From the NCBI GenBank assembly GCA_020055645.1, contig CM034546.1:60698001-60762000 (forward strand): a DNA stretch of 64,000 bases, in the 5' to 3' direction. Position numbers and translations under genes: made by a program. Source of the DNA: Tomocerus qinae (lineage: Eukaryota; Arthropoda; Collembola; Entomobryomorpha; Tomoceridae). This document shows positions 11,867 through 64,000 of this stretch, piece after piece (position 1 is the first letter of the stretch; each line of letters starts with the position of its first letter). The notes beneath the pieces were generated by a model. The model was not told the DNA's origin. It did no database searches and worked only from the letters and a program-made list of their open reading frames with translations.

Positions 11867-12877
11867 CTAAGTAGGAATGAAGTGAGACAACTCTTGGTCG
11901 TAGAATATGCCCTCTATAAGGTCTGCTGATTGAGAGTGTAGGTACTTTTTTGGCTTTTTACCAGCTTTAATACGTGCTGCATCTTCTTCAGCTTTTCGCT
12001 TCCTCTCTTGTTCACTTTCAAATAGTCGGTAGGTAGTTGGAATTGTATCATAAACCTTAGCTATGCTGAAAACCTCATTTACGAATCCAGGTAAATATCC
12101 TTTAGCAAATATTTTCTTGATTCGAGCCACTACAACAGTATCCCCAACTTTAAATTTTGGTTTCTTCTTCTTTACATGGATGAGGTGGCCAAAAGTATTT
12201 TTCCACACTTCATTTTCATTACTATCATTTACATCACGAGGTCTAAACTTTGTCGTAGAATGAATAGTAGAATTGTAAGAAGATAATATTTGTTTATACA
12301 CATTAATGTACTTGTGGTTGCCTTTGTATGTAAAATATCTTGCCAAACGAGACATTATTGTACGATGCCAACGTTCCACAACTGAAGCTTTATTTTCTCC
12401 ATAGGCAAATATGTGGCGCACACCAATGTGTTTTAAATAATCTCTCATTGGCTTTCCTAGGAATTCCAAGCCTAAATCTGTAAGTAAAGTCTGAGGTTTC
12501 CCCAGTACCTTAATAACTTGCTTGAGAGCTTTTAGGGCAGTATCAACTGTTTTATTTTTCATTGGAACCATATGAGCCATTTTAGAGAAAACGTCAATAG
12601 CAGTTAAAAAGTATTTGTATCCATTATTTTCGTTTGCATACCGAGATAAGTCTAATAAATCACAATGGAATTGGTACAGACGAAAATGAACCATGAATTT
12701 CCTTTTGGGGAACCTATTAACAACAGGCCTATGTAGCACATATGGTTTTAATTTATAGAGTTCATTAAGTACAACTTTCCTATCTGTGTATTTCCGGTTT
12801 TTGATAAACGTAGCCGCTCCACTGAAAGAGCCTGCAAACTTTGGATTGAGATAGTTACGCTTAATATTGGTCGCCAT
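11867..12877 (-). CDS. Polinton retroviral-type integrase (DDE)
   Basis: 336 aa from the first in-frame ATG at 12875-12877; the open frame extends further upstream only through non-ATG codons. The catalytic triad is visible: Asp73 (FHCDLLDLS), Asp134 (LLTDLGLEF) and Glu168 (KASVVERWHR), 34 residues apart. The C-terminal part (PKFKVGDTVVVARIKKIFAKG) is an SH3-like integrase C-terminal domain, followed by a charged linker and the IEGIFYDQEL motif seen in Polinton integrases. It inserts the linear element into chromosomal DNA, making 6-bp duplications as seen here. It appears intact, so it could still act on related elements. The next gene's ATG follows its stop by 9 nt. Confidence 0.93.
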   Translation of the reverse strand: MATNIKRNYLNPKFAGSFSGAATFIKNRKYTDRKVVLNELYKLKPYVLHRPVVNRFPKRKFMVHFRLYQFHCDLLDLSRYANENNGYKYFLTAIDVFSKMAHMVPMKNKTVDTALKALKQVIKVLGKPQTLLTDLGLEFLGKPMRDYLKHIGVRHIFAYGENKASVVERWHRTIMSRLARYFTYKGNHKYINVYKQILSSYNSTIHSTTKFRPRDVNDSNENEVWKNTFGHLIHVKKKKPKFKVGDTVVVARIKKIFAKGYLPGFVNEVFSIAKVYDTIPTTYRLFESEQERKRKAEEDAARIKAGKKPKKYLHSQSADLIEGIFYDQELSHFIPT

Positions 12878-13130
12878 CCTGGGTGATAATGAATGTATTT
12901 GTTTATTCACAAAGTAATAAATACTACGGCCGGGATTATTAATTAGCTTTCTCAGAGTCACCTAGGCACCATCATGAATGAAAAATGTTATGCCGTAATG
13001 TCAGAAAAGCTTCTTTCATACCATCTAGCGATTGAACTGCAAATGATATAATGATGAAATTGGTTCATTCGTCAAGTTGGTGCATATTTACGCGATATTA
13101 TACTGAATAATACTAATTAACGTCATATTT

Positions 13131-28097: not shown

Positions 28098-28455
28098 TAT
28101 ATATATTACTCGTGATTCATATTAGGAATGCTATGCTTTAAGTCTTGCCAATTAGACTGTCTGGAAACCTCTATTCAATTCGTATAATATTGGGTCATTG
28201 ATATATTGGGCTATATGTGTATCAACATTAAGCTTAAGGCGTAAATCCATAATTACTACGTAATGGATCTCCATTGTAATGAATGAGCATAGAAAAATCC
28301 TCATAACAGATATTACGAAATAGTATTTACTAGCAATGAATGGTAGATGCTGTGCGTAGTGCAATTTGAGCCCTTTAAAAGTGGAGACATTTTTTGGTAT
28401 TATTCAAAATGTTTTATTAGTTACTGCAAATATAACACTGAAAAAGAATTTAGTG

Positions 28456-28783
28456 CCCAAGCTGCAAAAATGTAATGTTGGCCCAGTGTCAGTTTTGACC
28501 GCCGGGACTGCAGCGGCCCTATATCGGCGAGTAGGGCCACCGCTGGGCCAACTATTCGCCAACCTCGGCGCGTAGTTGGGAGGGCGGACAAAACGGAGAA
28601 TAGCCGACGGTGGGCAATGATTGGCAAATGATCGGGAAAAGATCGGCAACGTACTTCCTTTGAGATAGGGCCCACGCCACCCCAATATTCGTGTTCTACA
28701 TGTGCGATTTAGTTAAAAGACATCGAAAAATACATGGCCGATGGTTTGCCGATGTTGGCCCAACATATGATTTGCAGCTTGGG
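28456..28783 (+). mobile_element. 328-bp MITE, copy 1
   Basis: Inverted ends CCCAAGCTGCAAA / TTTGCAGCTTGGG and a GC-rich interior with many GGCCCA- and CGGC-type motifs. The reverse complement of 47995-48322 is identical over the whole length by eye. Flanking dinucleotide TG on both sides. Non-coding; the short frames inside are by-products of composition. Confidence 0.9.
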
Positions 28784-28887
28784 TGGTTAGACTGAGGTAT
28801 TCAGAACATTAAAACAAAAATACGACTTTTTACAGCTCTAATATGGATTGACATTTTTTGCTTGTCAGTATGATTAGGCGCTGGAAC

Positions 28888-31137: not shown

Positions 31138-31142
31138 ATGAG
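31138..31142. repeat. Left 5-bp target duplication of LTR element (ATGAG)
   Basis: ATGAG is repeated at 34841-34845; 5 bp is typical for copia-type integration. Confidence 0.85.
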
Positions 31143-31562
31143 TGTTAGATGCAACCAACGATGCAACCAAAGGTGCGGGGATGAGAATTCAATGCGAGAT
31201 CTAATAGCCATTTATCTGTATGCGGATGAAATAGAATCTGACTTTATTATCAAACATTCACGGGTATTTATACAAAATCAGTGTGAAGTTCACAATACAA
31301 ATCAATAAAAGCATAAACACAAAATACATCGGTACATCGGTATGTGTGTCATAAAATGTGTTAGGTAATAAAATGTAATAACATGAAAAAGGTCAACAAG
31401 TAGGAACTTGCTTACAAAGGAAATAGCTTACATAGTCACCTACATACTTAACACGGTATTAGGTACATGAATAGCCAATGTCATATAAGATTACTTACAT
31501 ACTATTACTTCATAACATATTTAAGTAATAATGTCACTGCTATGGATTTCCTACCTCTAACA
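31143..31562 (-). repeat. 3' LTR of copia-like element
   Basis: 420 bp and nearly identical to 34421-34840. The ORF's stop codon TAG lies in its first six transcribed bases (TGTTAG). Confidence 0.92.
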
Positions 31563-33830
31563 CCCTCCTAAATCCGTAGTCGGTGCACTCGGAGGCGAAA
31601 CCTTTTTCAACATATCAGGAGTGCAGAAGCACTTCCATTTCTTCTTGTGTTCATATCCGAACACGCATTCCTTCGTTTCAGAATGATGACCGATGAAACC
31701 CTTCGGGCGTTTATGTCCCCACAGCTCCTTGTACGAGGATTTCTTCCTAGAATTCTTGCCCTTTTTCCTGTGGGCCTTTTCGCACTCTTCTTCTATGGAG
31801 CTACTGCGTGCTGTTTTCTCCGAACTCCCATCCGACTCCTCGGCTTCCGAGTCGATGAATCTCCTGGCTCCAGATTTCTTCCTTTTGTAGGACACCGGAC
31901 TGTCATCTTCGTCCGAATCAGAACTCTGGCGCTTTATTACGGAACATCCCTTCATAGAAGTAGTCAGAGCCTCTACTTCTTTCTGTGGTTGGGGAAGACA
32001 GCATTCTTTTTCCCATTTCTCCATCTGGTCGCTCCAGAGAGAAAGATTTTCATCTTCAGGTGATTGGGGGACTTCATCTGCAGACGTGGTTGACCCTGAT
32101 TCCTTGCTGAGTATTCCAGTTTCAGTAGTACCCTCCTTCAGAGAGACTGCGGCTGCAGAATCTACCATTTTACTGGCCCATGTCAGCTGTGGAGTGACTT
32201 TCGTTAGTCCACTTGGTCCACTTTTTATTTCTTCCACTAGTCTGTCCATCATATTCATGGTGCTGGGGACAATCACTCCCCACTCAACCAATTCGGGCAG
32301 TTTTTCCTTCCAAGGCTTTGGAGGAAATGCAATCAGGCTTTCATAAAAATCCACGGTTTTAGCCTTAAAGTATGTCTTGAGTTTTCCATCCCACACGACA
32401 TTCTCTTTATTTTCGTGCCCAACATAAATCCCATGGCGGAAGAAAGGGGATGACATTCCGCCGGGCTTCTTATTCACTTGCACTTTACAACCAAACAGTC
32501 GTAAGTGACTAACGTTGACACTTTTCCCACGTAGTAGCTCATACGGGGACTTATTATTTCTGGTTGTGTCTGTATAATTGTGGATCTGCGCAGCATGCTT
32601 TGCTGCGTCTTCCCAAAAATTGTTGGTCAAGCCTGAACCCAACAACATTGACCAAGCCATAGTAATCACCTTCTGGCTTGTAATACAATCTGGTCTAGTT
32701 CCACCAGTGTATTTTAACTCTTGTTCTTTGACGAACGCCAACCACTCCGGTGATTTCAAAGTGAACGTGCTTTTCACTTTTCGCAACTTCTTGTTGTCCG
32801 GAAGTTTATAAGCCTTTATAAACTCTATTGCGACCTTCGCAATGTCGGCTTCGTCCAGGGAGTCCGTAAATTCGACGTCCACATAGTTAGTCCTACCCTC
32901 CTTGATCAATACAAGGTGACGGATCTTCTTAAACTTATTCTCCGTCTTCCCTTGAAAAATTTCAAAATAGAGGCAAGCTTCCTCTGTATTTTCAGGGTGG
33001 TCCAGGTACACACACTTCTTCGGCAGCAACTTGCTTGCGCAAATCAAGCAATTAAATTCAGATTCCAGGGACGTACCATTACCAAGGTGGTAGGTTTTTC
33101 TTATTATCCCTTTATGTAGCTTGGGCAAAGGCTGATGCCCCAAACGCTCATGCCAGCGTTGGTCTACATTTTCTTTCGGAGCTCGAAAGAATATCTTGGG
33201 CTGCATCTGATTGTCACGAATTCCCTGTAACATCAGTCTTCGGCTTAAGTTTCTGACATGTACCTGATCTCCCTCACATTCCAGCTCTAGTCCTTCAAAC
33301 TTCAGAGCAGTGGCTGAAACAAAATTGGAGGTAGTCTGCACGTAATAAACATTACGCAAAATTAAGAGTTCCCAACGTCCACAGGCTAGTGCGAGAACTT
33401 TCACTTCCCCATAGGCAGTAGCCTCAGCAACGGTGTCTTCATTGACTCGAACAGACAAGGGCTTCTTGCTGTTTTTTATCCAGCTAAATCGACTTTTATC
33501 ATTGCAAATATGTCGATGGCACTTAAAATTAAGTACCCACTCATAGCTGTCCGCTGCATTTTTAAGTTCTTTCAGCATGGCTATGCAAAGAACAGTCTGC
33601 GTGGACCGGAGCACTGTTGATAAACAAAAATTCAAATAGCAGCACTGGCGGCAACGGCGGCAGCCGTTGTAACTTAACTCGTAGCGCAGCAACACAGGCG
33701 GCGACTTCAGGGGCGTCACAAAGACTTGGGCGGCGGCAACACAGGCAGCAGCTCCTTGCGCAGCAACACAGGCGGCGACTTCATATACGAGTTTTGGCAG
33801 TGCTGTAATCAAGTTAGCTACTTGATTCAC
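31557..33830 (-). CDS. Copia-type Pol remnant ORF with no catalytic residues and a novel tail
   Basis: The frame is open from 33830 (no ATG there); the first ATG is at 33576-33578, giving 673 aa. Regions are recognisable by alignment of framework residues: protease-like (YEWVLNF..HRHICNDKSRF), GAG-pre-integrase (RWHERLGH...CLICASKLLPKK, HHCC zinc residues kept), integrase core, and the NFWEDAAKHAAQIHN...SPYELLRGK...SHLRLFGCKV segment. The protease Asp-Ser-Gly and the integrase D, D and E positions are all replaced (for example TRPDCITSQ where PxxNGxAE is expected). The last ~250 residues are Ser/Lys-rich, with a Cys/His-containing end (CVFGYEHKKKWKCFC). No reverse transcriptase is present. 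The upstream 84 codons are alanine-rich repeats and probably leader. The function may be structural or DNA-binding; this is inference. Confidence 0.8.
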   Translation of the reverse strand: MNQVANLITALPKLVYEVAACVAAQGAAACVAAAQVFVTPLKSPPVLLRYELSYNGCRRCRQCCYLNFCLSTVLRSTQTVLCIAMLKELKNAADSYEWVLNFKCHRHICNDKSRFSWIKNSKKPLSVRVNEDTVAEATAYGEVKVLALACGRWELLILRNVYYVQTTSNFVSATALKFEGLELECEGDQVHVRNLSRRLMLQGIRDNQMQPKIFFRAPKENVDQRWHERLGHQPLPKLHKGIIRKTYHLGNGTSLESEFNCLICASKLLPKKCVYLDHPENTEEACLYFEIFQGKTENKFKKIRHLVLIKEGRTNYVDVEFTDSLDEADIAKVAIEFIKAYKLPDNKKLRKVKSTFTLKSPEWLAFVKEQELKYTGGTRPDCITSQKVITMAWSMLLGSGLTNNFWEDAAKHAAQIHNYTDTTRNNKSPYELLRGKSVNVSHLRLFGCKVQVNKKPGGMSSPFFRHGIYVGHENKENVVWDGKLKTYFKAKTVDFYESLIAFPPKPWKEKLPELVEWGVIVPSTMNMMDRLVEEIKSGPSGLTKVTPQLTWASKMVDSAAAVSLKEGTTETGILSKESGSTTSADEVPQSPEDENLSLWSDQMEKWEKECCLPQPQKEVEALTTSMKGCSVIKRQSSDSDEDDSPVSYKRKKSGARRFIDSEAEESDGSSEKTARSSSIEEECEKAHRKKGKNSRKKSSYKELWGHKRPKGFIGHHSETKECVFGYEHKKKWKCFCTPDMLKKVSPPSAPTTDLGGC

Positions 33831-34060
33831 TTAGTGAAGATGGCACAAACACGAACAACGGCGTAAACTGTTAATTAACCACTAACCAGTCAAACTAATA
33901 ACAAAAAATTGGAGGTGGCAACACGAGCACACGTCACACGCGACTCAAACGCCCAATAATGGCAGCACCCAGCGGCGATTATGGACAATGACACCAATAA
34001 CGGCAGCACCCAGCGGCGGTTATGGAATTTTAAAAAACAAGCCAGTCCAACTTAACTGAA
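33640..34060. repeat. Short GC-rich repeats in the LTR element leader
   Basis: GCAACACAGGCGGCGACTTCA occurs twice (about 33688 and 33764) with a related copy between. GGCAGCACCCAGCGGCG.TTATGG occurs twice (about 33961 and 34002). These sit between the 5' LTR and the coding part. Confidence 0.75.
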
Positions 34061-34420
34061 ATTACTGACAGCGGCAGCGGTCAAGTCTATAACACGCAGA
34101 AGTTCAAAAAAAAAACCACAAAGGTGAAAAATGGCTATTTCACTAAGATTTTAACAAAAAATTCGGCAGTTGCACAAAAATTTTTAACAGTCATCAAACG
34201 GGCTCCACATTAACATAACAAATGTTGGCATACAAATGTTGGGTCTCTTCCTGACGATTTATGAATTTACTAAGTGGTCACTGCTTGACTCACTTTACTT
34301 CAAAAAAACACTTCAAAGTTCTCCCATAAACAGATATCAATTCTCAACTCTCCCTCCTTGCTCTGGAAAAACTAAAATTCTCCAAAATTTTATTTTAGTA
34401 GAGCATAAGTGTAGATAACG

Positions 34421-34840
34421 TGTTAGATGCAACCAACGATGCAACCAAAGGTGCGGGGATGAGAATTCAATGCGAGATCTAATAGCCATTCATCTGTATG
34501 CGGATGAAATAGAATCTGACTTTATTATCAAACATTCACGGGTATTTATACAAAATCAGTGTGAAGTTCACAATACAAATCAATAAAAGCATAAACACAA
34601 AATACATCGGTACATCGGTATGTGTGTCATAAAATGTGTTAGGTAATAAAATGTAATAACATGAAAAAGGTCAACAAGTAGGAACTTGCTTACAAAGGAA
34701 ATAGCTTACATAGTCACCTACATACTTAACACGGTATTAGGTACATGAATAGCCAATGTCATATAAGATTACTTACATACTATTACTTCATAACATATTT
34801 AAGTAATAATGTCACTGCTATGGATTTCCTACCTCTAACA
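34421..34840 (-). repeat. 5' LTR of copia-like element
   Basis: 420 bp, bounded TGTTAGATGC...CCTCTAACA, with a single base difference from 31143-31562. Confidence 0.92.
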
Positions 34841-34845
34841 ATGAG
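34841..34845. repeat. Right 5-bp target duplication of LTR element (ATGAG)
   Basis: Direct repeat of 31138-31142. Confidence 0.85.
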
Positions 34846-47838: not shown

Positions 47839-47994
47839 TCTATTCATTACTTGTAGGAGAACAATGATTAGAACAACTAATTAAAGCTTAACACACTCAT
47901 TTACACTAAGCACAGAATATAAAATGGGAAACACTAATAATACAGTCTGGCAATAGAATGTTATTATTTTCACTACGAATGTTTGATGATCCTA

Positions 47995-48322
47995 CCCAAG
48001 CTGCAAATCATATGTTGGGCCAACATCGGCAAACCATCGGCCATGTATTTTTCGATGTCTTTTAACTAAATCGCACATGTAGAACACGAATATTGGGGTG
48101 GCGTGGGCCCTATCTCAAAGGAAGTACGTTGCCGATCTTTTCCCGATCATTTGCCAATCATTGCCCACCGTCGGCTATTCTCCGTTTTGTCCGCCCTCCC
48201 AACTACGCGCCGAGGTTGGCGAATAGTTGGCCCAGCGGTGGCCCTACTCGCCGATATAGGGCCGCTGCAGTCCCGGCGGTCAAAACTGACACTGGGCCAA
48301 CATTACATTTTTGCAGCTTGGG
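47995..48322 (-). mobile_element. 328-bp MITE, copy 2, inserted in the Hsp70-like gene
   Basis: Exact reverse complement of 28456-28783. Flanked by TA on both sides. Its end on the gene side adds the last four codons and the stop of the Hsp70-like frame. Confidence 0.9.
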
Positions 48323-50415
48323 TACCTTCATTTAATTTTTCAATTACATCCGGCTCTTCTTCATTTGCAACTTCTTCATTATTGATAGTGATTTGATTTT
48401 TATTTCCCGTGGATTTTTCGACAGCAGTTACGAACAGGGCTCCATTGGCATCAACTTCGAATGTTACTTCAATTTGAGGAACACCACGAGGTGCCAGAGG
48501 TATGCCCTTCAGCTCAAATTTACCAATAATTTTATTATTATCTTTTGTGTAATGCCGCTCACCTTCAAATACCTGGATTAAAAAAAATTATTAATTTGCT
48601 TTGCATCAAAGTAAATCCAACGTATGCTATAATTTTATACCTTAATTATTATTCTTTGTTGATTATCTGAGTACGTTGTGAAGGTTTGACTTTCATTGGT
48701 TGGGATAGTAGTATTTCGCTTGATAAGAATCGTCATAACATCATTTCCATCTTTTACAGTTTCAATCCCCAAACTTATAGGTGTGGCATCTAAAAGTAGA
48801 ACATCTTTTATTTCTTCGGAATTATCTTTATGTAAAACAGCAGCATGTATTGCTGCTCCATACGCTGCAGCTTCTTCGGGATTGATCGATTGGTTCAACA
48901 CTTTTCCATTAAAGAAGTCTTGTAACAATTTCTTAATTTTTGGAATCCTGGAAGAGCCTCCCACTAAGACAATCTCTTCCACTTGATCTTTGTCCATCCT
49001 TGCATCCCTTAAGGCTTTTTCAATTAGCTCCAGTGTATAACGAAATAAATCAGCATTCAATTCCTCGAATCGAGTTCGAGTGATTGAAGTATAAAAGTCA
49101 ATTCCATCAATCAGAGAATCGATTCCGATAATGGCAACCGATGAACCGGATAAAGTCCTCTTTGCCCTTTCGCAGGCAGTTCTTAGTCGACGAAGGGCTC
49201 GCTTATCCTTTCCCAAGTCCTTTTTGTGTTTTCTCTTAAATTCTTGTATAAAATGAGTAACCATTCTGCTATCAAAATCTTCACCTCCTAAATGAGAATC
49301 TCCAGCCATTGACATGACTTCGTAGATTCCATCTTGAATATTCAAGACAGACACATCCAAAGTTCCGGCTCCCAAATCAAATACAAGCACATCCTTGTTA
49401 CCACGGACCTGTAATTATAACGATTCTTAAATATTGTTGCACGGGCGGTAGCAGCCAGTCTTGACGCATTAGAGAGCCTCATTGACTTTACAGTAGTGAA
49501 AATATTTAATACGAAAGCGAGAAATCGCAAAATTTGGCAATGCTATGGACACTTTTTAAATTTTCGTTCGATATTTCTAATTGCAAATGGCAAATAGTTA
49601 ATCCACCCTGTCCCTAGCACTTGTAACTAGTTAGTATGTCTTTCGAAAACTTTGAATTTTATTACAGTATATTTCAAAATTTCAATGCAATAATTTGAAA
49701 GTGCAACATACGTGTGAAAAGATACCTTATTTTCCAAACCGTAAGCCATGGCAGCGGCCGTCGGAGCATTAATGATTCTCAAAACATTAAGTCCGGCTTT
49801 TAATCCAGCATCTTTTGTATTTTGTCGCTGTGCATAATTGAAACAAACCGGGACCGAAATAACTGCATCGGTTATAGGTTTATCCAAATAAGCTTCAGCA
49901 GTTTCTTTCATTTTCTTCAACATCATCTCACAGATTTTTTCTGGGGAAAATGAAATCTTCTTTCCCTTGTACTCAACCTGAAGCTTAGCTTTTTTGTCAT
50001 GGCTAATTACCTCGAAAGGCCAATGTATCATGTCACCTTGGACAGCAGGATCTTTGAATTTACGACCGATCAATCGATTAGAAGCTATAAAGTTAATAAT
50101 AATTGAATTATTATCGAAAACCTGTCATAATTTCAAACTTTATATAAAACCTCTCATAAAACCTTATAGATACTGAATATAAATACCAGAAATTGTGTTT
50201 TGAGGGTTCATTGCGTCTTGATTTTTAGCCGCATGTCCAACGAGAATCCGTGAGATTATTCTTGTACCTGTGAAAGTATCTGTGAAAGCGACACAGCTGG
50301 GAGTCGTCCTGTAGCCCTGATCATTAGCAATTATTTCCACTTGGCCATCGTGGAAAACAGCAACACAAGAGCTACTTGTCCCCAAATCAATTCCAATTGC
50401 TGGAGGCTTAGACAT
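48303..50415 (-). CDS. Hsp70-like protein truncated after the substrate-binding beta domain
   Basis: Four exons: 50187-50415, 49726-50084, 48641-49408 and 48303-48572, all with GT-AG introns and matching phases; 541 aa against ~640 for Hsp70. The nucleotide-binding domain is clear: [14 protein letters not shown] (10-23), [23 protein letters not shown] and [11 protein letters not shown]. The substrate-binding beta domain ([20 protein letters not shown]) follows, but the alpha-helical lid and C-terminal motif are absent. The frame runs into a MITE that supplies the stop. Residues conserved for ATP hydrolysis differ: NAPTAAA replaces NEPTAAA (the catalytic Glu), and DLGAGTL replaces DLGGGTF. An extra ~8 residues sit before AAKNQ. 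It may be a divergent or decaying chaperone; the frames themselves are undamaged. Confidence 0.85.
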
Positions 50416-57418: not shown

Positions 57419-58200
57419 CTTATACTAGCTATATTTCGGTGTCATATATATAATTTTTGCACTAATAATCTCGCGTTAGTGTAAAATAGAATGTCATTTA
57501 CGATGAATGATATCAGGAAATTTAAGCACCGAAAAGCCGGGAAGATTGAATCGGGTTAATTAACAAATAACTATTAATCATTAAATGGCAGTGTCATAAG
57601 CAGCTATACATCATTGTTAATCACTCATCAATCACTATTCCATTGTCAATTGGTTCACATTGTCATGATGTAATTAAATACAACGTACGCACGATGTGAG
57701 TTGCAACTTGCAAAATATTCGTAGTTATAAGTTCATAGCCAAGTGGAAAAGCCAGACGAAATTCTAAGAGATCTGAAATATGCCTCTCCGTATAGCCAAT
57801 CACCTAATTAAATTTTCACCAGAGAGTACGAGTTAAAATTATAGATACTGCTATTGACAACAATCAATTTCCTCCTTAAAATTCTTCCTTACGTGCATTA
57901 TATTGCAAACTGCAATTTAAAGAAAGACAATTTAATTTAAAGACAGATTTAAAGACAATTCAATGGCAGTTAATTTCAAACTATACATAGATGTAAGTAT
58001 ACAGCTACTCTGTCAAATTACTTTGTAAAGTCTATAAATATCCAGTACTTTATATTGATGCAAGAAAATAAGTCAATACAAATGGAATCATTATAGCGGC
58101 CAGACTAAAAAGCCCCTCCCTAGGGTGGGGCGCCCCACCCGCCCCACCATGCTCAATACATACAGGGTGGAAATAATATTTTTATATATAAATTTTCACG
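57419..58200. other. Spacer before the minisatellite
   Basis: AT-rich, then abruptly G/C-rich from 58110 (GGGTGGGGCGCCCCACCCGC), where the transition to the repeat array starts. No gene. Confidence 0.5.
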
Positions 58201-58201
58201 C

Positions 58202-61200
58202 AGGTACCAGTGTCTACCAGGGTGGGGACAATGTCTACCAGGGAGAGGCCAATGTCTACCAGGGAGGGGCCAATGTCTACCAGGGAGGGGCCAATATCTT
58301 CCAGGGTGGGGCCTATGTTTACCAGGGTGGGGCCAATGTCTACGAGGGTGGGGTAAATGTCTACCAGGGTGGGGCCTATGTTTACCAGGGTGGGGCCAAT
58401 GTCTACCAAGGTGGGGCCAATGTCTACCAGGGAGGGGCCAATGTCTACCAGGGAGGGGCCAATGTCTACCAGGATGGGGCCAATGACTACGAGGGTGGGG
58501 CCAATAACTACCAGGGTAGGGCCAATGTCTACGAGGGTGGGGCCAATGTCTACGAGGGTGAGGCCAATGTCTACGAGGGTGGGGCCAATGTCTACTAGGG
58601 TAGGGCCGATGTCTACCAGGGTGGGGCCAATGTCTACCAGGGTGGGGCCTATGTCTACCAGGGTGGGGCCTATGTTTACCAGGGTGGGGCCAATGTCTAC
58701 CAGGGTGGGGCCTATGTCTACCAGGGTGGGGCCAATGTTTACCAGGGTGGGGCCAATGTTTACCAGGGTGGGGACTACGTTTACCAGGGTGGGGCCAATG
58801 TCTACCAGGGTGGGGGCCAATGTCTACCAGGGTGGGGCTAATGTCTACCAGGGTGGGGCCAATGTCTACCAGGGTGGGGCCTATGTTTAACAGGGTGGGG
58901 CCAATGTCTACCAGGGTGGGGCCAATGTCTACCAGGGTGGCGCCAATGTTTACCAGGGTGGGGCCTATGTCTACCAGGGTGGGGCCAATGTTTACCAGGG
59001 TGGGGCCAATGTTTACCAGGGTGGGGCCAATGTCTACCAGGGTGGGGCCAATGTCTACCAGGGTGGGGCCAATGTCTACCAGGGTGGGGCCAATGTCTAC
59101 CAGGGTGGGGCCAATGTCTACCAGGGTGGGGCCAATGTCTACCAGGGTGGGGCCAATGTCTACCAGGGTGGGGCCAATGTCTACCAGAGGAGGGCCTATG
59201 TTTACCAGGGTGGGGCCAATGTCTACCAGGGTGGGGCCAATGTCTACCAGGGTGGGGCCTATGTTTACCAGGGTGGGGCCGATGTCTAACAGGGTGGGGC
59301 CAATGTCTACCAAGGTGGGGCCTATGTTTACCAGGGTGGGGCTTATGTTTACCAGGGTGGGGCCAATGCCTACCACGCTGGAGCTTATGTTTACCAGGGT
59401 GTGGCCTATGTTTACCAGGGTGGGGCCTATGTTTACCAGGGTGGGGCCAATGTCTAACAGGGTGGGGCCTATGTTTACCAGGGTGGGGCGAATGTCTACC
59501 AGGGTGGCACCAATGTCTACCAGGGTGGGGCCAATGTCCTCCAGGGTGTGGCCTATGTTTAACAGTGTGGGGCCAATGTCTACCAGGGTGGGGCCTATGT
59601 TTACCAGGGTGGGGCCAATGTCTACCAGGGTGGGGCCAATGTCTACCAGGGTGGGGCCAATGTCTACCAGGGTGGGGCCTATGTTTACCAGGGTGGGGCC
59701 ATTGTCTACCAGGGTGGGGCGTATGTTTACCAGGGTGGGGCCTATGTTTACCAGGGTGGGGCCAATGTCTACCATAGTGGGGCCAGAGTCTACCAGGGTG
59801 GGGCCAATGTCTACCAGGGTGGGGCCTATGTTTACCAGGGTGGGGCCATTGTCTACCAGGGTGGGGCCTATGTTTACCAGGGTGGGGCCAATGTCTACCA
59901 TGGTGGGGCCAGAGTCTACCAGGGTGGGGCCAATGTCTACCAGGGTGGGGCCTATGTTTAACAGGGTGGGGCCAATGTCTACCAGGGTGGGGCCAATGTC
60001 TACCAGGGTGGGGCCAATGTCTACCACGGTGGGGCCAATGTCTACCAGGGTGGGGGCCAATGTCTACCCGGGTGGGGCCATTGTCTACCAGGGTGGGGCC
60101 AATGTCTACCAGGGTGGGGCCTATGTTTACCAGGGTGGGGCCGATGTCTAACAGGGTGGGGCCAATGTCTACCAAGGTGGGGCCTATGTTTACCAGGGTG
60201 GGGCTTATGTTTACCAGGGTGGGGCCAATGTCTACCATGGTGGGGCCAGAGTCTACCAGGGTGGGGCCAATGTTTACCAGGGTGGGGCCTATGTTTACCA
60301 GGGTGGGGCCTATGTTTACCAGGGTGGGGCCAATGTCTACCAGGGTGGGGCCAATGTCTACCAGGGTGGGGCCAATGTCTACCAGGGTGGGGCCTATGTT
60401 TAACAGGGTGGGGCCAATGTCTACCAGGGTGGGGCCAATGTCTACCAGGGTGGGGCCTATGTTTACCAGGGTGGGGCCGATGTCTACCAGTGTGGGGCAA
60501 ATGTCTACCAGGGTGGAGCCAATGTCTACCAGGGTGGAGCCAATGTCTACCAGGGTGGGGTCTATGTTTATCAGGGTGGGGCCAATGTCTACCAGGGTGG
60601 GGCCAATGTCTACCAGGTTGGGGACTATTTTTACCAGGGTGGGGCTGATGTCTACCAGGGTGGGGTCAATGTCTAACAGGGTAGGGCTAATGTCTACCAG
60701 GGTGGGGCCTATGTTTAACAGGGTGGGGCCAATGTCTACCAGGGTGGGGCCAATGTTTACCAGGGTGGGGCCAATGTCTACCAGGGTGGGGCCTATGTTT
60801 ACCAGGGTGGGGCCTATGTTTACCAGGGTGGGGCCAATGTCTACCAGGGTGGGGCCAATGTCTACCAGGGTGGAGCCAATGTCTACCAGGGTGGAGCCAA
60901 TGTCTACCAGGGTGGGGTCTATGTTTACCAGGGTGGGGCTAATGTCTACTAGGGTGGGGACTATTTTTACCAGGGTGGGGCTGATGTCTACCAGGGTGGG
61001 GCCAATGTCTAACAGGGTAGGGCCAATGTCTACCAGGGTGGGGCCAATGTCTACCAGGGTGGGGCCTATGTTTACCAGGGTGGGGCCATTGTCTACCAGG
61101 GTGGGGCCTATGTTTACCAGGGTGGGGCCTATGTTTACCAGGGTGGGGCCAATGTCTACCATGGTGGGGCCAGAGTCTACCAGGGTGGGGCCAATGTCTA

Positions 61201-64000
61201 CCAGGGTGGGGCCTATGTTTACCAGGGTGGGGCCATTGTCTACCAGGGTGGGGCCTATGTTTACCAGGGTGGGGCCAATGTCTACCATGGTGGGGCCAGA
61301 GTCTACCAGGGTGGGGCCAATGTCTACCAGGGTGGGGCCTATGTTTACCAGGGTGGGGCCGATGTCTACCAGTGTGGGGCAAATGTCTACCAGGGTGGAG
61401 CCAATGTCTACCAGGGTGGAGCCAATGTCTACCAGGGTGGGGTCTATGTTTACCAGGGTGGGGCCAATGTCTACCAGGGTGGGGCCAATGTCTACCAGGT
61501 TGGGGACTATTTTTACCAGGGTGGGGCTGATGTCTACCAGGGTGGGGTCAATGTCTAACAGGGTAGGGCTAATGTCTACCAGGGTGGGGCCTATGTTTAA
61601 CAGGGTGGGGCCAATGTCTACCAGGGTGGGGCCAATGTCTACCAGGGTGGGGCCAATGTCTACCAGGGTGGGGCCTATGTCTACCAGGGTGGGGCCTATG
61701 TTTACCAGGGTGGGGCCGATGTCTACCAGGGTGGGGCCAATGTCTACCAGGGTGGAGCCAATGTCTACCAGGGTGGAGCCAATGTCTACCAGGGTGGGGT
61801 CTATGTTTACCAGGGTGGGGCTAATGTCTACTAGGGTGGGGACTATTTTTACCAGGGTGGGGCTGATGTCTACCAGGGTGGGGCCAATGTCTAACAGGGT
61901 AGGGCCAATGTCTACCAGGGTGGGGCCAATGTCTACCAGGGTGGGGCCTATGTTTACCAGGGTGGGGCCATTGTCTACCAGGGTGGGGCCTATGTTTACC
62001 AGGGTGGGGCCTATGTTTACCAGGGTGGGGCCAATGTCTACCATGGTGGGGCCAGAGTCTACCAGGGTGGGGCCAATGTCTACCAGGGTGGGGCCTATGT
62101 TTACCAGGGTGGGGCCATTGTCTACCAGGGTGGGGCCTATGTTTACCAGGGTGGGGCCAATGTCTACCATGGTGGGGCCAGAGTCTACCAGGGTGGGGCC
62201 AATGTCTACCAGGGTGGGGCCTATGTTTACCAGGGTGGGGCCGATGTCTACCAGTGTGGGGCAAATGTCTACCAGGGTGGAGCCAATGTCTACCAGGGTG
62301 GAGCCAATGTCTACCAGGGTGGGGTCTATGTTTACCAGGGTGGGGCCAATGTCTACCAGGGTGGGGCCAATGTCTACCAGGTTGGGGACTATTTTTACCA
62401 GGGTGGGGCTGATGTCTACCAGGGTGGGGCCAATGTCTAACAGGGTAGGGCTAATGTCTACCAGGGTGGGGCCTATGTTTACCAGGGTGGGGCCGATGTC
62501 TACCAGGGTGGGGCCAATGTCTACCAGGGTGGAGCCAATGTCTACCAGGGTGGAGCCAATGTCTACCAGGGTGGGGTCTATGTTTACCAGGGTGGGGCTA
62601 ATGTCTACTAGGGTGGGGACTATTTTTACCAGGGTGGGGCTGATGTCTACCAGGGTGGGGCCAATGTCTAACAGGGTAGGGCCAATGTCTACCAGGGTGG
62701 GGCCAATGTCTACCAGGGTGGGGCCTATGTTTACCAGGGTGGGGCCATTGTCTACCAGGGTGGGGCCTATGTTTACCAGGGTGGGGCCTATGTTTACCAG
62801 GGTGGGGCCAATGTCTACCATGGTGGGGCCAGAGTCTACCAGGGTGGGGCCAATGTCTACCAGGGTGGGGCCTATGTTTACCAGGGTGGGGCCATTGTCT
62901 ACCAGGGTGGGGCCTATGTTTACCAGGGTGGGGCCAATGTCTACCAGGGTGGGGCCTATGTTTACCAGGGTGGGGCCGATGTCTACCAGTGTGGGGCAAA
63001 TGTCTACCAGGGTGGAGCCAATGTCTACCAGGGTGGAGCCAATGTCTACCAGGGTGGGGTCTATGTTTACCAGGGTGGGGCCAATGTCTACCAGGGTGGG
63101 GCCAATGTCTACCAGGTTGGGGACTATTTTTACCAGGGTGGGGCTGATGTCTACCAGGGTGGGGCCAATGTCTAACAGGGTAGGGCTAATGTCTACCAGG
63201 GTGGGGCCTATGTTTAACAGGGTGGGGCCAATGTCTACCAGGGTGGGGCCAATGTCTACCAGGGTGGGGCCAATGTCTACCAGGGTGGGGCCTATGTCTA
63301 CCAGGGTGGGGCCTATGTTTACCAGGGTGGGGCCGATGTCTACCAGGGTGGGGCCAATGTCTACCAGGGTGGAGCCAATGTCTACCAGGGTGGAGCCAAT
63401 GTCTACCAGGGTGGGGTCTATGTTTACCAGGGTGGGGCTAATGTCTACTAGGGTGGGGACTATTTTTACCAGGGTGGGGCTGATGTCTACCAGGGTGGGG
63501 CCAATGTCTAACAGGGTGGGGCCTATGTTTACCAGGGTGGGGCCATTGTCTACCAGGGTGGGGCATATGTTTACCAGGGTGGGGCCTATGTTTACCAGGG
63601 TGGGGCCAATGTCTACCATGGTGGGGCCAGAGTCTACCAGGGTGGGGCCAATGTCTACCAGGGTGGGGCCTATGTTTACCAGGGTGGGGCCATTGTCTAC
63701 CAGGGTGGGGCCTATGTTTACCAGGGTGGGGCCAATGTCTACCATGGTGGGGCCAGAGTCTACCAGGGTGGGGCCAATGTCTACCAGGGTGGGGCCTATG
63801 TTTACCAGGGTGGGGCCGATGTCTACCAGTGTGGGGCAAATGTCTACCAGGGTGGAGCCAATGTCTACCAGGGTGGAGCCAATGTCTACCAGGGTGGGGT
63901 CTATGTTTACCAGGGTGGGGCCAATGTCTACCAGGGTGGGGCCAATGTCTACCAGGTTGGGGACTATTTTCACCAGGGTGGGGCTGATGTCTACCAGGGT
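58202..64000. repeat. 21-bp G-rich minisatellite array, >5.8 kb, with higher-order repeats
   Basis: The unit is GGTGGGGCCAATGTCTACCAG, with variants CCTATGTTTACC, CATTGTCTACC, AGAGTCTACC and TAACAG. From about 60480 onward a block of variants recurs: matching positions at 60939, 61821, 62598 and 63438 are spaced 882, 777 and 840 bp, i.e. 42, 37 and 40 units. Because 21 is a multiple of 3 and the unit has few stops, long frames arise on both strands in several phases (up to 1711 codons on the minus strand). Single-base gains at about 58811-58816 and 60051-60056 shift frames without creating stops, so these frames are most likely not genes. The array runs off the window. Confidence 0.95.

Follow-up and report, generated by a model that had tools for sequence, protein, structure and literature searches.

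In this study, we analysed a stretch of 64,000 nucleotides from the collembolan Tomocerus qinae (GenBank assembly GCA_020055645.1, contig CM034546.1, positions 60,698,001 to 60,762,000), hereafter the window, and followed up a long terminal repeat (LTR) element that an initial annotation, made from the letters alone, had singled out near its centre. We found that this element, which carries one open reading frame (ORF) and no reverse transcriptase (RT), is a member of a clade of RT-less mobile elements and not a lone deleted copy. The ORF encodes a protein derived from the protease and integrase (PR-IN) region of copia elements, in which the catalytic residues of both enzymes are lost. Our data show purifying selection on this dead protein over deep divergence, and they also show recent independent insertions of clade elements. 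It is very probable that these elements constitute a helper-dependent clade in which a pseudo-integrase is maintained by selection.

The window element has two LTRs and a 5-bp target-site duplication, as expected of a Ty1/copia retrotransposon. Its features, in window coordinates, are the following.

31143-34840, minus strand: whole LTR element, 3,698 bp, with one 673-codon ORF
34421..34840, minus strand: 5' LTR, 420 bp, 419 of 420 bases identical to 31143-31562
31143..31562, minus strand: 3' LTR, 420 bp, one mismatch to the 5' LTR
31138..31142, no strand: target-site duplication ATGAG, left copy, 5 bp
34841..34845, no strand: target-site duplication ATGAG, right copy, 5 bp
34542-34551, minus strand: TATA-like GTATAAATAC in the 5' LTR (feature span 34515..34551)
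34515-34526, minus strand: AATAAAGTCAGA in the 5' LTR (feature span 34515..34551)
34400..34420, minus strand: primer binding site, complement of an internal 5'-half stretch of tRNA-Ile (AAT), position 34 read as inosine
33579..34399, minus strand: leader, about 820 bases, with GC-rich direct repeats
31563..31569, minus strand: polypurine tract AGGAGGG, adjoining the 3' LTR
31557..33578, minus strand: single ORF, pseudo-protease/integrase with a new C-terminal tail, 673 aa plus stop
33300..33539, minus strand: protease-like barrel PF22936, E 1.9e-7, above the cut-off, catalytic Asp replaced by Asn (WVLNFKCHRHIC)
33036..33158, minus strand: GAG-pre-integrase / integrase N-terminal zinc residues, HHCC intact (RWHERLGH ... 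FNCLIC)
32487..32975, minus strand: integrase-core-like region, first Asp (D1) replaced by E, second Asp (D2) deleted, NGKxERD block deleted
32337..32528, minus strand: SH3-like domain PF25597, E 2e-5, below the curated cut-off
31560..32278, minus strand: C-terminal clade tail with KRKK, DSEAEES and SIEEEC stretches
31611..31673, minus strand: Cys/Trp motif KECVFGYEHKKKWKCFCTPDM, pattern retained in four of six distinct full proteins aligned

The single mismatch over the 420-bp LTRs and the ATGAG copies on both sides bear out the very recent insertion proposed in the initial annotation. The minus-strand frame is open for 757 codons (31557-33830); its start was set at the ATG at 33578, from which the relatives align, and the frame remains open for 84 codons further upstream. 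The longest stop-free run, 756 codons, compares with a maximum of 312 in 2,000 Markov-simulated internals. The copia framework that had been recognised in this ORF was recovered, with PF22936, the HHCC residues and the below-cut-off PF25597 all found; Pfam matched GAG-pre-integrase only weakly (E 0.022) and listed no gag, rve or RT family for the ORF or its pieces. Moreover, none of the 81 matches listed for a gag query of the genome lies at the window element, nor does any of the listed matches to the RT family RVT_2, in agreement with the earlier statement that RT and RNase H are lacking.

To compare residues, we aligned eight dead rows of the clade with seven PR-IN pieces taken from copia-type frames in the same genome. 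In the accessible part of the source, the Ty1/copia protease motif is given as DSG/DTG-type (PMC3587641). This motif is missing from the window ORF and from all seven clade rows that reach the site: the protease Asp is D in 7/7 comparison rows and N in 7/7 dead rows, the replacement described for the window ORF. An integrase DD35E triad is likewise missing from the window ORF and the clade (8/8 rows). D1 is D in six of the seven comparison rows, L039 having N, and every dead row has E, H or N there; D2 is D in 7/7 comparison rows and deleted in 8/8 dead rows; and the same counts hold for the presence and deletion of the E-bearing NGKxERD block of about nine residues. The first description, in which the integrase D, D and E are replaced, therefore stands for D1, but D2 and the E block are deleted, as in the relatives. 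In three dead rows, the window ORF not among them, an E aligns at the third catalytic column, and the loss is less certain there. The HHCC zinc residues, on the other hand, occur in all 15 rows, including 8/8 dead rows. A residual enzymatic activity through shifted residues could appeal to the E at D1 in four rows and the E at the aligned third position in three. However, those E residues stand in different rows, D2 is deleted in 8/8 and the protease D has become N in 7/7, which leaves this as the least probable of the readings that we weighed. One comparison locus, L058/L039 (C1:136.927 Mb), has an 811-aa gag-PR-IN frame with no RVT_2 match among those listed; it retains the protease Asp, has N at D1, and is possibly an intermediate or a decaying copy.

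The genome searched comprises 334 Mb in 115 contigs and is a single genome. The LTR and ORF searches return best candidates, so that counts are lower bounds. Besides smaller fragments, we examined 18 related elements or remains, named by contig and position in Mb (C1 where no contig is stated): the window copy, 12.07, 53.49, 55.17, 74.11, 1.298, C2_23.47, C2_14.79, C2_0.93, 45.96, C19, 1.459, 52.169, 52.165, 14.30, C3_38.90, 33.10 and 51.59. Their shared losses do not fit a single decaying copy, in support of the initial proposal. Copies with intact catalytic residues were not found among the near relatives (74.11 and pieces of 12.07, 53.49 and 55.17), and none of these four places has an RVT_2 match among those listed. 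Identity to the window protein is 29-59% for the six full proteins in the alignment; the clade conserves full frames of 673-762 aa, and PF22936 was found in five of six members. The PR-IN region of the clade is homologous to copia (tblastn, 24-27% identity, best E 1e-40), and the window ORF shares about 21-30% identity with copia frames that include RT. In a maximum-likelihood tree, a 100/100 branch separates the eight RT-less dead rows from six other rows, namely four copia types with RT, the RT-less L039 (also counted, as L039/L058, among the seven comparison rows) and one plant copia; five inner forks lack resolution. In the alignment and tree, the two stops of 51.59 (L030) were entered as X, and the frame read for C3_38.90 does not include the protease part, the N-terminal piece of this element lying in another frame. 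Downstream of the SH3-like domain, blocks resembling DSEAEES and SIEEEC are conserved in the clade tail, which has no match in the copia loci compared. The tail is novel in this sense, as had been suggested, but its Cys motif is found in only four of six proteins: the pattern C..GY..W.C.C.P at its end is present in the window element, 74.11, C2_14.79 and 45.96, and missing from 52.165 and C3_38.90.

The dN/dS counts (ratios of nonsynonymous to synonymous divergence) leave out codons with gaps or stops, and the bracketed ranges are from bootstrap. Between the window ORF and 53.49, dN/dS is 0.173 (0.13-0.22) over 629 codons, with dS 0.61 and dN 0.11, and each of the six segments, the tail among them, gives a ratio of 0.10-0.23. 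Against 55.17 it is 0.207 (0.16-0.26) over 627 codons, with 0.10-0.21 in five segments. These values, not near 1, sustain the idea of an uninterrupted ORF under selection. Two decayed pairs gave 0.54 (53.49 versus 55.17, both broken) and 0.64 (C3_38.90 versus the decayed 51.59), as expected for relaxed copies. The LTRs of 53.49 are 97.7% identical, a recent insertion, and most of the divergence from the window copy therefore arose while the lineages moved. Between families, three pairs show proportions of synonymous differences (pS) of 0.76-0.80, which are saturated, against proportions of nonsynonymous differences (pN) of 0.27-0.43.

These data bear on the possibility that the elements are ordinary deleted copia copies, intact by chance, which were mobilised in trans and have yet to decay. 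Partner-driven movement of non-autonomous LTR elements is on record in the accessible parts of the literature, and some of the copies examined here are broken. Yet the same losses recur across families that are 29-59% identical and form one clade, with dN/dS of 0.17-0.21. Moreover, had the deletion been recent, a highly similar parent copia should still be present; none is among the matches listed in the ORF genome search, nor is there a parent at the nucleotide level among the copia pieces compared. Given the selection and the lack of a close parent in that search, we ruled out a simple deleted copia, whose chances we rate as very slim.

Recent movement is evident across the clade. LTR pairs are at least 99.7% identical in 12 of the 18 elements. 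A 5-bp duplication was found in 15 of 16 elements checked, in 13 without a boundary shift and in two (C19 and 1.459) with a one-base shift; the duplication at 53.49 is unclear, and 12.07 has a run of T as its duplication. The LTR boundaries of 45.96, C19 and 1.459 carry an uncertainty of between one and a few tens of bases, with LTR pairs 98.1% identical over 415 bases in 45.96 and 100% over 389 in C19. Three dead-clade insertions (flanks L047, L049 and L052) lie inside tandem-repeat arrays that continue on both sides, which possibly reflects a target preference. The ORF is uninterrupted in 9 of the 18 (window, 74.11, C2_14.79, 45.96, C19, 1.459, 52.169, 14.30 and 52.165). Comparison of four young broken copies with identical LTRs (L009, L044, L045 and L047) with their intact sisters located 23 indels in total outside the LTRs and none inside; these copies may have moved in trans, or the indels may be assembly errors. 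The location of the nine intact copies, all between LTRs, argues against a domesticated gene that serves the host, for instance against copia, and is merely carried by mobile elements. A genome rich in copia RT matches, in which the protein is deeply conserved, would suit such a gene, but no LTR-free version is among the matches listed. On account of the LTRs around all nine intact copies, we rejected a host gene as the principal explanation and judge it highly improbable.

Altogether, the best explanation that we can offer, to which we assign a probability of roughly 0.55 as a whole, is that of a copia-derived, helper-dependent clade whose non-enzymatic protein acts as an adaptor. The elements of the clade are about 3 kb long, and their copia-derived ancestor would have lost gag, RT and the protease and integrase active sites. 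Its lineages would have retained the protease/integrase framework, with the HHCC zinc finger and SH3-like domain, together with the new tail, as a non-enzymatic protein. The elements of the clade have no RT and hence need a helper. Judging from the anatomy of the elements, full copia elements would supply Gag, RT and integrase in trans, and the helper would recognise the primer site, the polypurine tract and the LTR ends. Less certainly, the dead protein may bind its own RNA or cDNA ends and/or the helper integrase through the zinc finger and SH3-like domain. Helper particles might thereby carry and integrate the small element, with packaging, import or integration favoured for its own kind. 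The roles first proposed for the ORF, binding its own RNA/DNA or hijacking a partner, would fit this scheme. Considered on its own, the adaptor role of the dead protein is a tentative proposal drawn from sequence features.

Potential helpers are not scarce. We counted at least 80 RVT_2 rows for the genome, many of which lie in frames of 1,000-1,995 aa, and none of the matches listed falls at a dead-clade place. Copia L059, whose PR-IN piece is row L040, carries gag, the protease barrel, rve, SH3 and RVT_2. A primer site of tRNA-Ile type, complementary to an internal 5'-half stretch, was recognised in L059 and in all eight dead-family sites tested; the test covered 8 of 16 elements, one or two per family, with 53.49 left out, its LTR end being unclear. 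Site scores were reached by 0-24 of 2,000 shuffles, the weakest being C3_38.90 (24) and L059 (12); for the window site the count was 0/2000, with the tRNA gene called by ARAGORN. The tRNA stretch has nine copies in the genome, and the one fetched was called tRNA-Ile by ARAGORN. Most tested sites carry C opposite anticodon position 34, as inosine would template, and the C in window 34400-34420 and in L061 1480-1554 is possibly the trace of a tRNA modification copied into DNA. In copia L060 (1,942-aa frame), the first 18 bases of the primer site are those of C2_0.93; the stretch of L060 examined has no LTR pair, and its LTR end was set from the primer site. In addition, a TATA..AATAAA core, contained in GTATAAATAC and AATAAAGTCAGA of the window element, is common to the LTRs of the window element, most other dead-clade families and L059, with only the AATAAA part seen in the compared stretch of 52.165.

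Leaders are shared more narrowly. Among 12 other leader stretches compared, the window leader has nucleotide matches only to 53.49, 55.17 and 74.11. In 33.10, an older element with a truncated 412-aa frame and 93% identical LTRs, a leader block is about 80% identical over 174 nt to the copias L037/L038, and the ORFs have no nucleotide match. Since a conserved leader stands beside coding DNA that cannot be aligned, template switching in a shared particle is suggested. Shorter blocks of the 33.10 leader are 86-89% identical to a Gag-only element. The LTR search with the 1.459 family also matched C4:10.63, C2:19.71, C5:12.43 and C1:99.31, in pairs about 3 kb apart, with the match limited to about 125 LTR bases. 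In the C4 element, the portion read (L063 598-1401, C4:10.626 Mb) encodes a copia gag (PF14223) with a zinc-knuckle-like end. These Gag-only elements comprise four near-identical copies with frames of 513-518 aa, of which the first parts were read, and their Gag shares 78-79% identity with its counterpart in L037/L038-type copias. No RVT_2 match among those listed lies at their places. Elements with gag but no RT thus coexist with dead-PR/IN elements in one genome. A multipartite system could be envisaged in which full copia, Gag-only 3-kb and dead-PR/IN 3-kb elements, with a common primer-site type, LTR core and some leader, exchange proteins in trans while the dead protein directs the particles or intasomes of the helper towards the small elements; we regard this extension as unlikely.

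The leader homology between 33.10 and copia, like the frameshifts in some young copies, would also suit selection on the RNA and not on the protein, in which case the PR-IN stretch would keep packaging or dimerisation signals and the open frame would be incidental. The low ratios of the window ORF versus 53.49 in six of six segments (0.10-0.23, tail included) and the frames that stay open between families at pS near 0.8 speak against it. Under this reading, synonymous sites should be as constrained as the leader blocks, but the data show the reverse. A pure RNA role, which was rejected as the principal explanation because of the synonymous bias, is in our view improbable.

The main rival to the adaptor role is dominant interference, in which the dead protein poisons multimers of helper integrase or protease and limits the activity or copy number of copia. 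Inactive forms of multimeric enzymes often act dominantly, which favours such a factor. The LTR searches are also compatible with low copy numbers, as at least 2, 3 and 5 full copies were observed in the three families searched. In the accessible part of the source, moreover, Ty1 p22/p18 and Drt2 are described as non-enzymatic restriction factors derived from copia-group elements (PMC12530519). However, that text derives p22 and Drt2 from capsid, not from integrase. In addition, a parasite in need of a helper would curb its own movement by interference, and the clade elements moved very recently. Interference accordingly appears rather unlikely, and we retain the adaptor as the preferred role.

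Several observations weigh against the explanation that we favour. The first 120 codons of the window ORF versus 55.17 give a ratio of 0.63 (0.28-1.17), 55.17 being badly broken there. No constraint is measurable among the youngest copies: five near-identical members of the 759-762 aa family are separated by 1-8 differences, too few to inform, with ratios up to 1.5. The ORF is broken in 5 of the 12 young elements (12.07, 1.298, C2_23.47, C2_0.93 and C3_38.90), so that individual copies may not require it in cis; intact copies may serve broken ones in trans, or the indels may come from assembly, and either would weaken a strictly cis-acting adaptor. The Cys tail is not universal, as it is missing from one branch of the clade. 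Primer-site scores of 20-23 also arise by chance within 9 kb of copia DNA, so that the case for the weaker sites comes from their location next to the LTR. Only one of eight dead elements, 33.10, has a leader in common with the copia pieces compared, not all of which include the leader; for this reason no helper can be named for the window family. AlphaFold gave no usable structure for the window ORF alone (predicted local distance difference test score, pLDDT, 34), and a profile search of the PDB returned 0 hits. With preselection by shared words, neither the window ORF nor that of C2_14.79 found a relative in the protein database, the six-protein alignment had two plant copia proteins as its sole outside hits, and a scan of 11 stretches against IMG/VR viral contigs left 0 confirmed. 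With so few outside relatives, the age of the clade rests on divergence alone.

Elsewhere in the window, a 332-nt inverted repeat (28453-28784 and 47994-48325) is 100% complementary over arms 19 kb apart. The segment 759-15283 is bounded by long inverted repeats (438 nt at 100% plus further arms), between which lie ORFs including an rve integrase (11870-12961) and a 1,015-aa ORF; we take it to resemble a Maverick/Polinton. A large tandem array with 21-bp spacing, open in several frames, occupies 58098-64000 at a GC content of 57-58%, against 29-45% in the rest of the window. Pfam scans of four multi-pass receptor-like ORFs of the window found no family.

Compared with known systems, the window element resembles Ty1/copia (Pseudoviridae) in its LTRs, 5-bp duplication, protease barrel, HHCC zinc finger and SH3-like domain, and it has an internal-tRNA primer site, as does Drosophila copia. 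It differs in having a new C-terminal tail and neither gag, RT/RNase H nor catalytic protease and integrase residues. TR-GAG, BARE-2 and similar plant elements are helper-dependent LTR elements that keep gag or most of pol, TR-GAG having gag and no pol. The window element, as a putative helper-dependent element with one protein gene, is similar to them, but it has no gag and the gene retained encodes a dead protease/integrase. TRIM and LARD are, like it, short or RT-less LTR elements moved in trans, and they have no coding frame, unlike the 673-codon frame under selection here. GIN1 is a domesticated integrase gene of the host without LTRs; the dead-clade gene, also integrase-derived and under selection, still moves with its element, its nine intact copies lying between LTRs. 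Ty1 p22 and Drt2 are comparable as non-enzymatic proteins from copia-group elements, but the accessible text describes them as capsid-derived (PMC12530519), and the window protein comes from PR-IN and not from the capsid C-terminal domain. Furthermore, p22 is encoded by the autonomous element itself and Drt2 is endogenised, whereas the dead protein is made by a separate mobile family. Among the titles and abstract openings listed in our searches of open PMC articles, none describes LTR elements that lack RT and carry an ORF for a dead integrase.

The usual view of non-autonomous LTR elements is that they retain nothing or one structural gene. In the clade described here, a protease/integrase whose residues leave it unable to cut or join DNA has been retained, has diversified and has recently spread. 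The clade thus offers a natural separation-of-function protein, in which the non-catalytic roles of integrase, such as RNA binding, particle maturation, targeting and multimer building, are directly testable. If dependent on helpers as we propose, the clade would represent a case of a parasite of parasites with a gene of its own.

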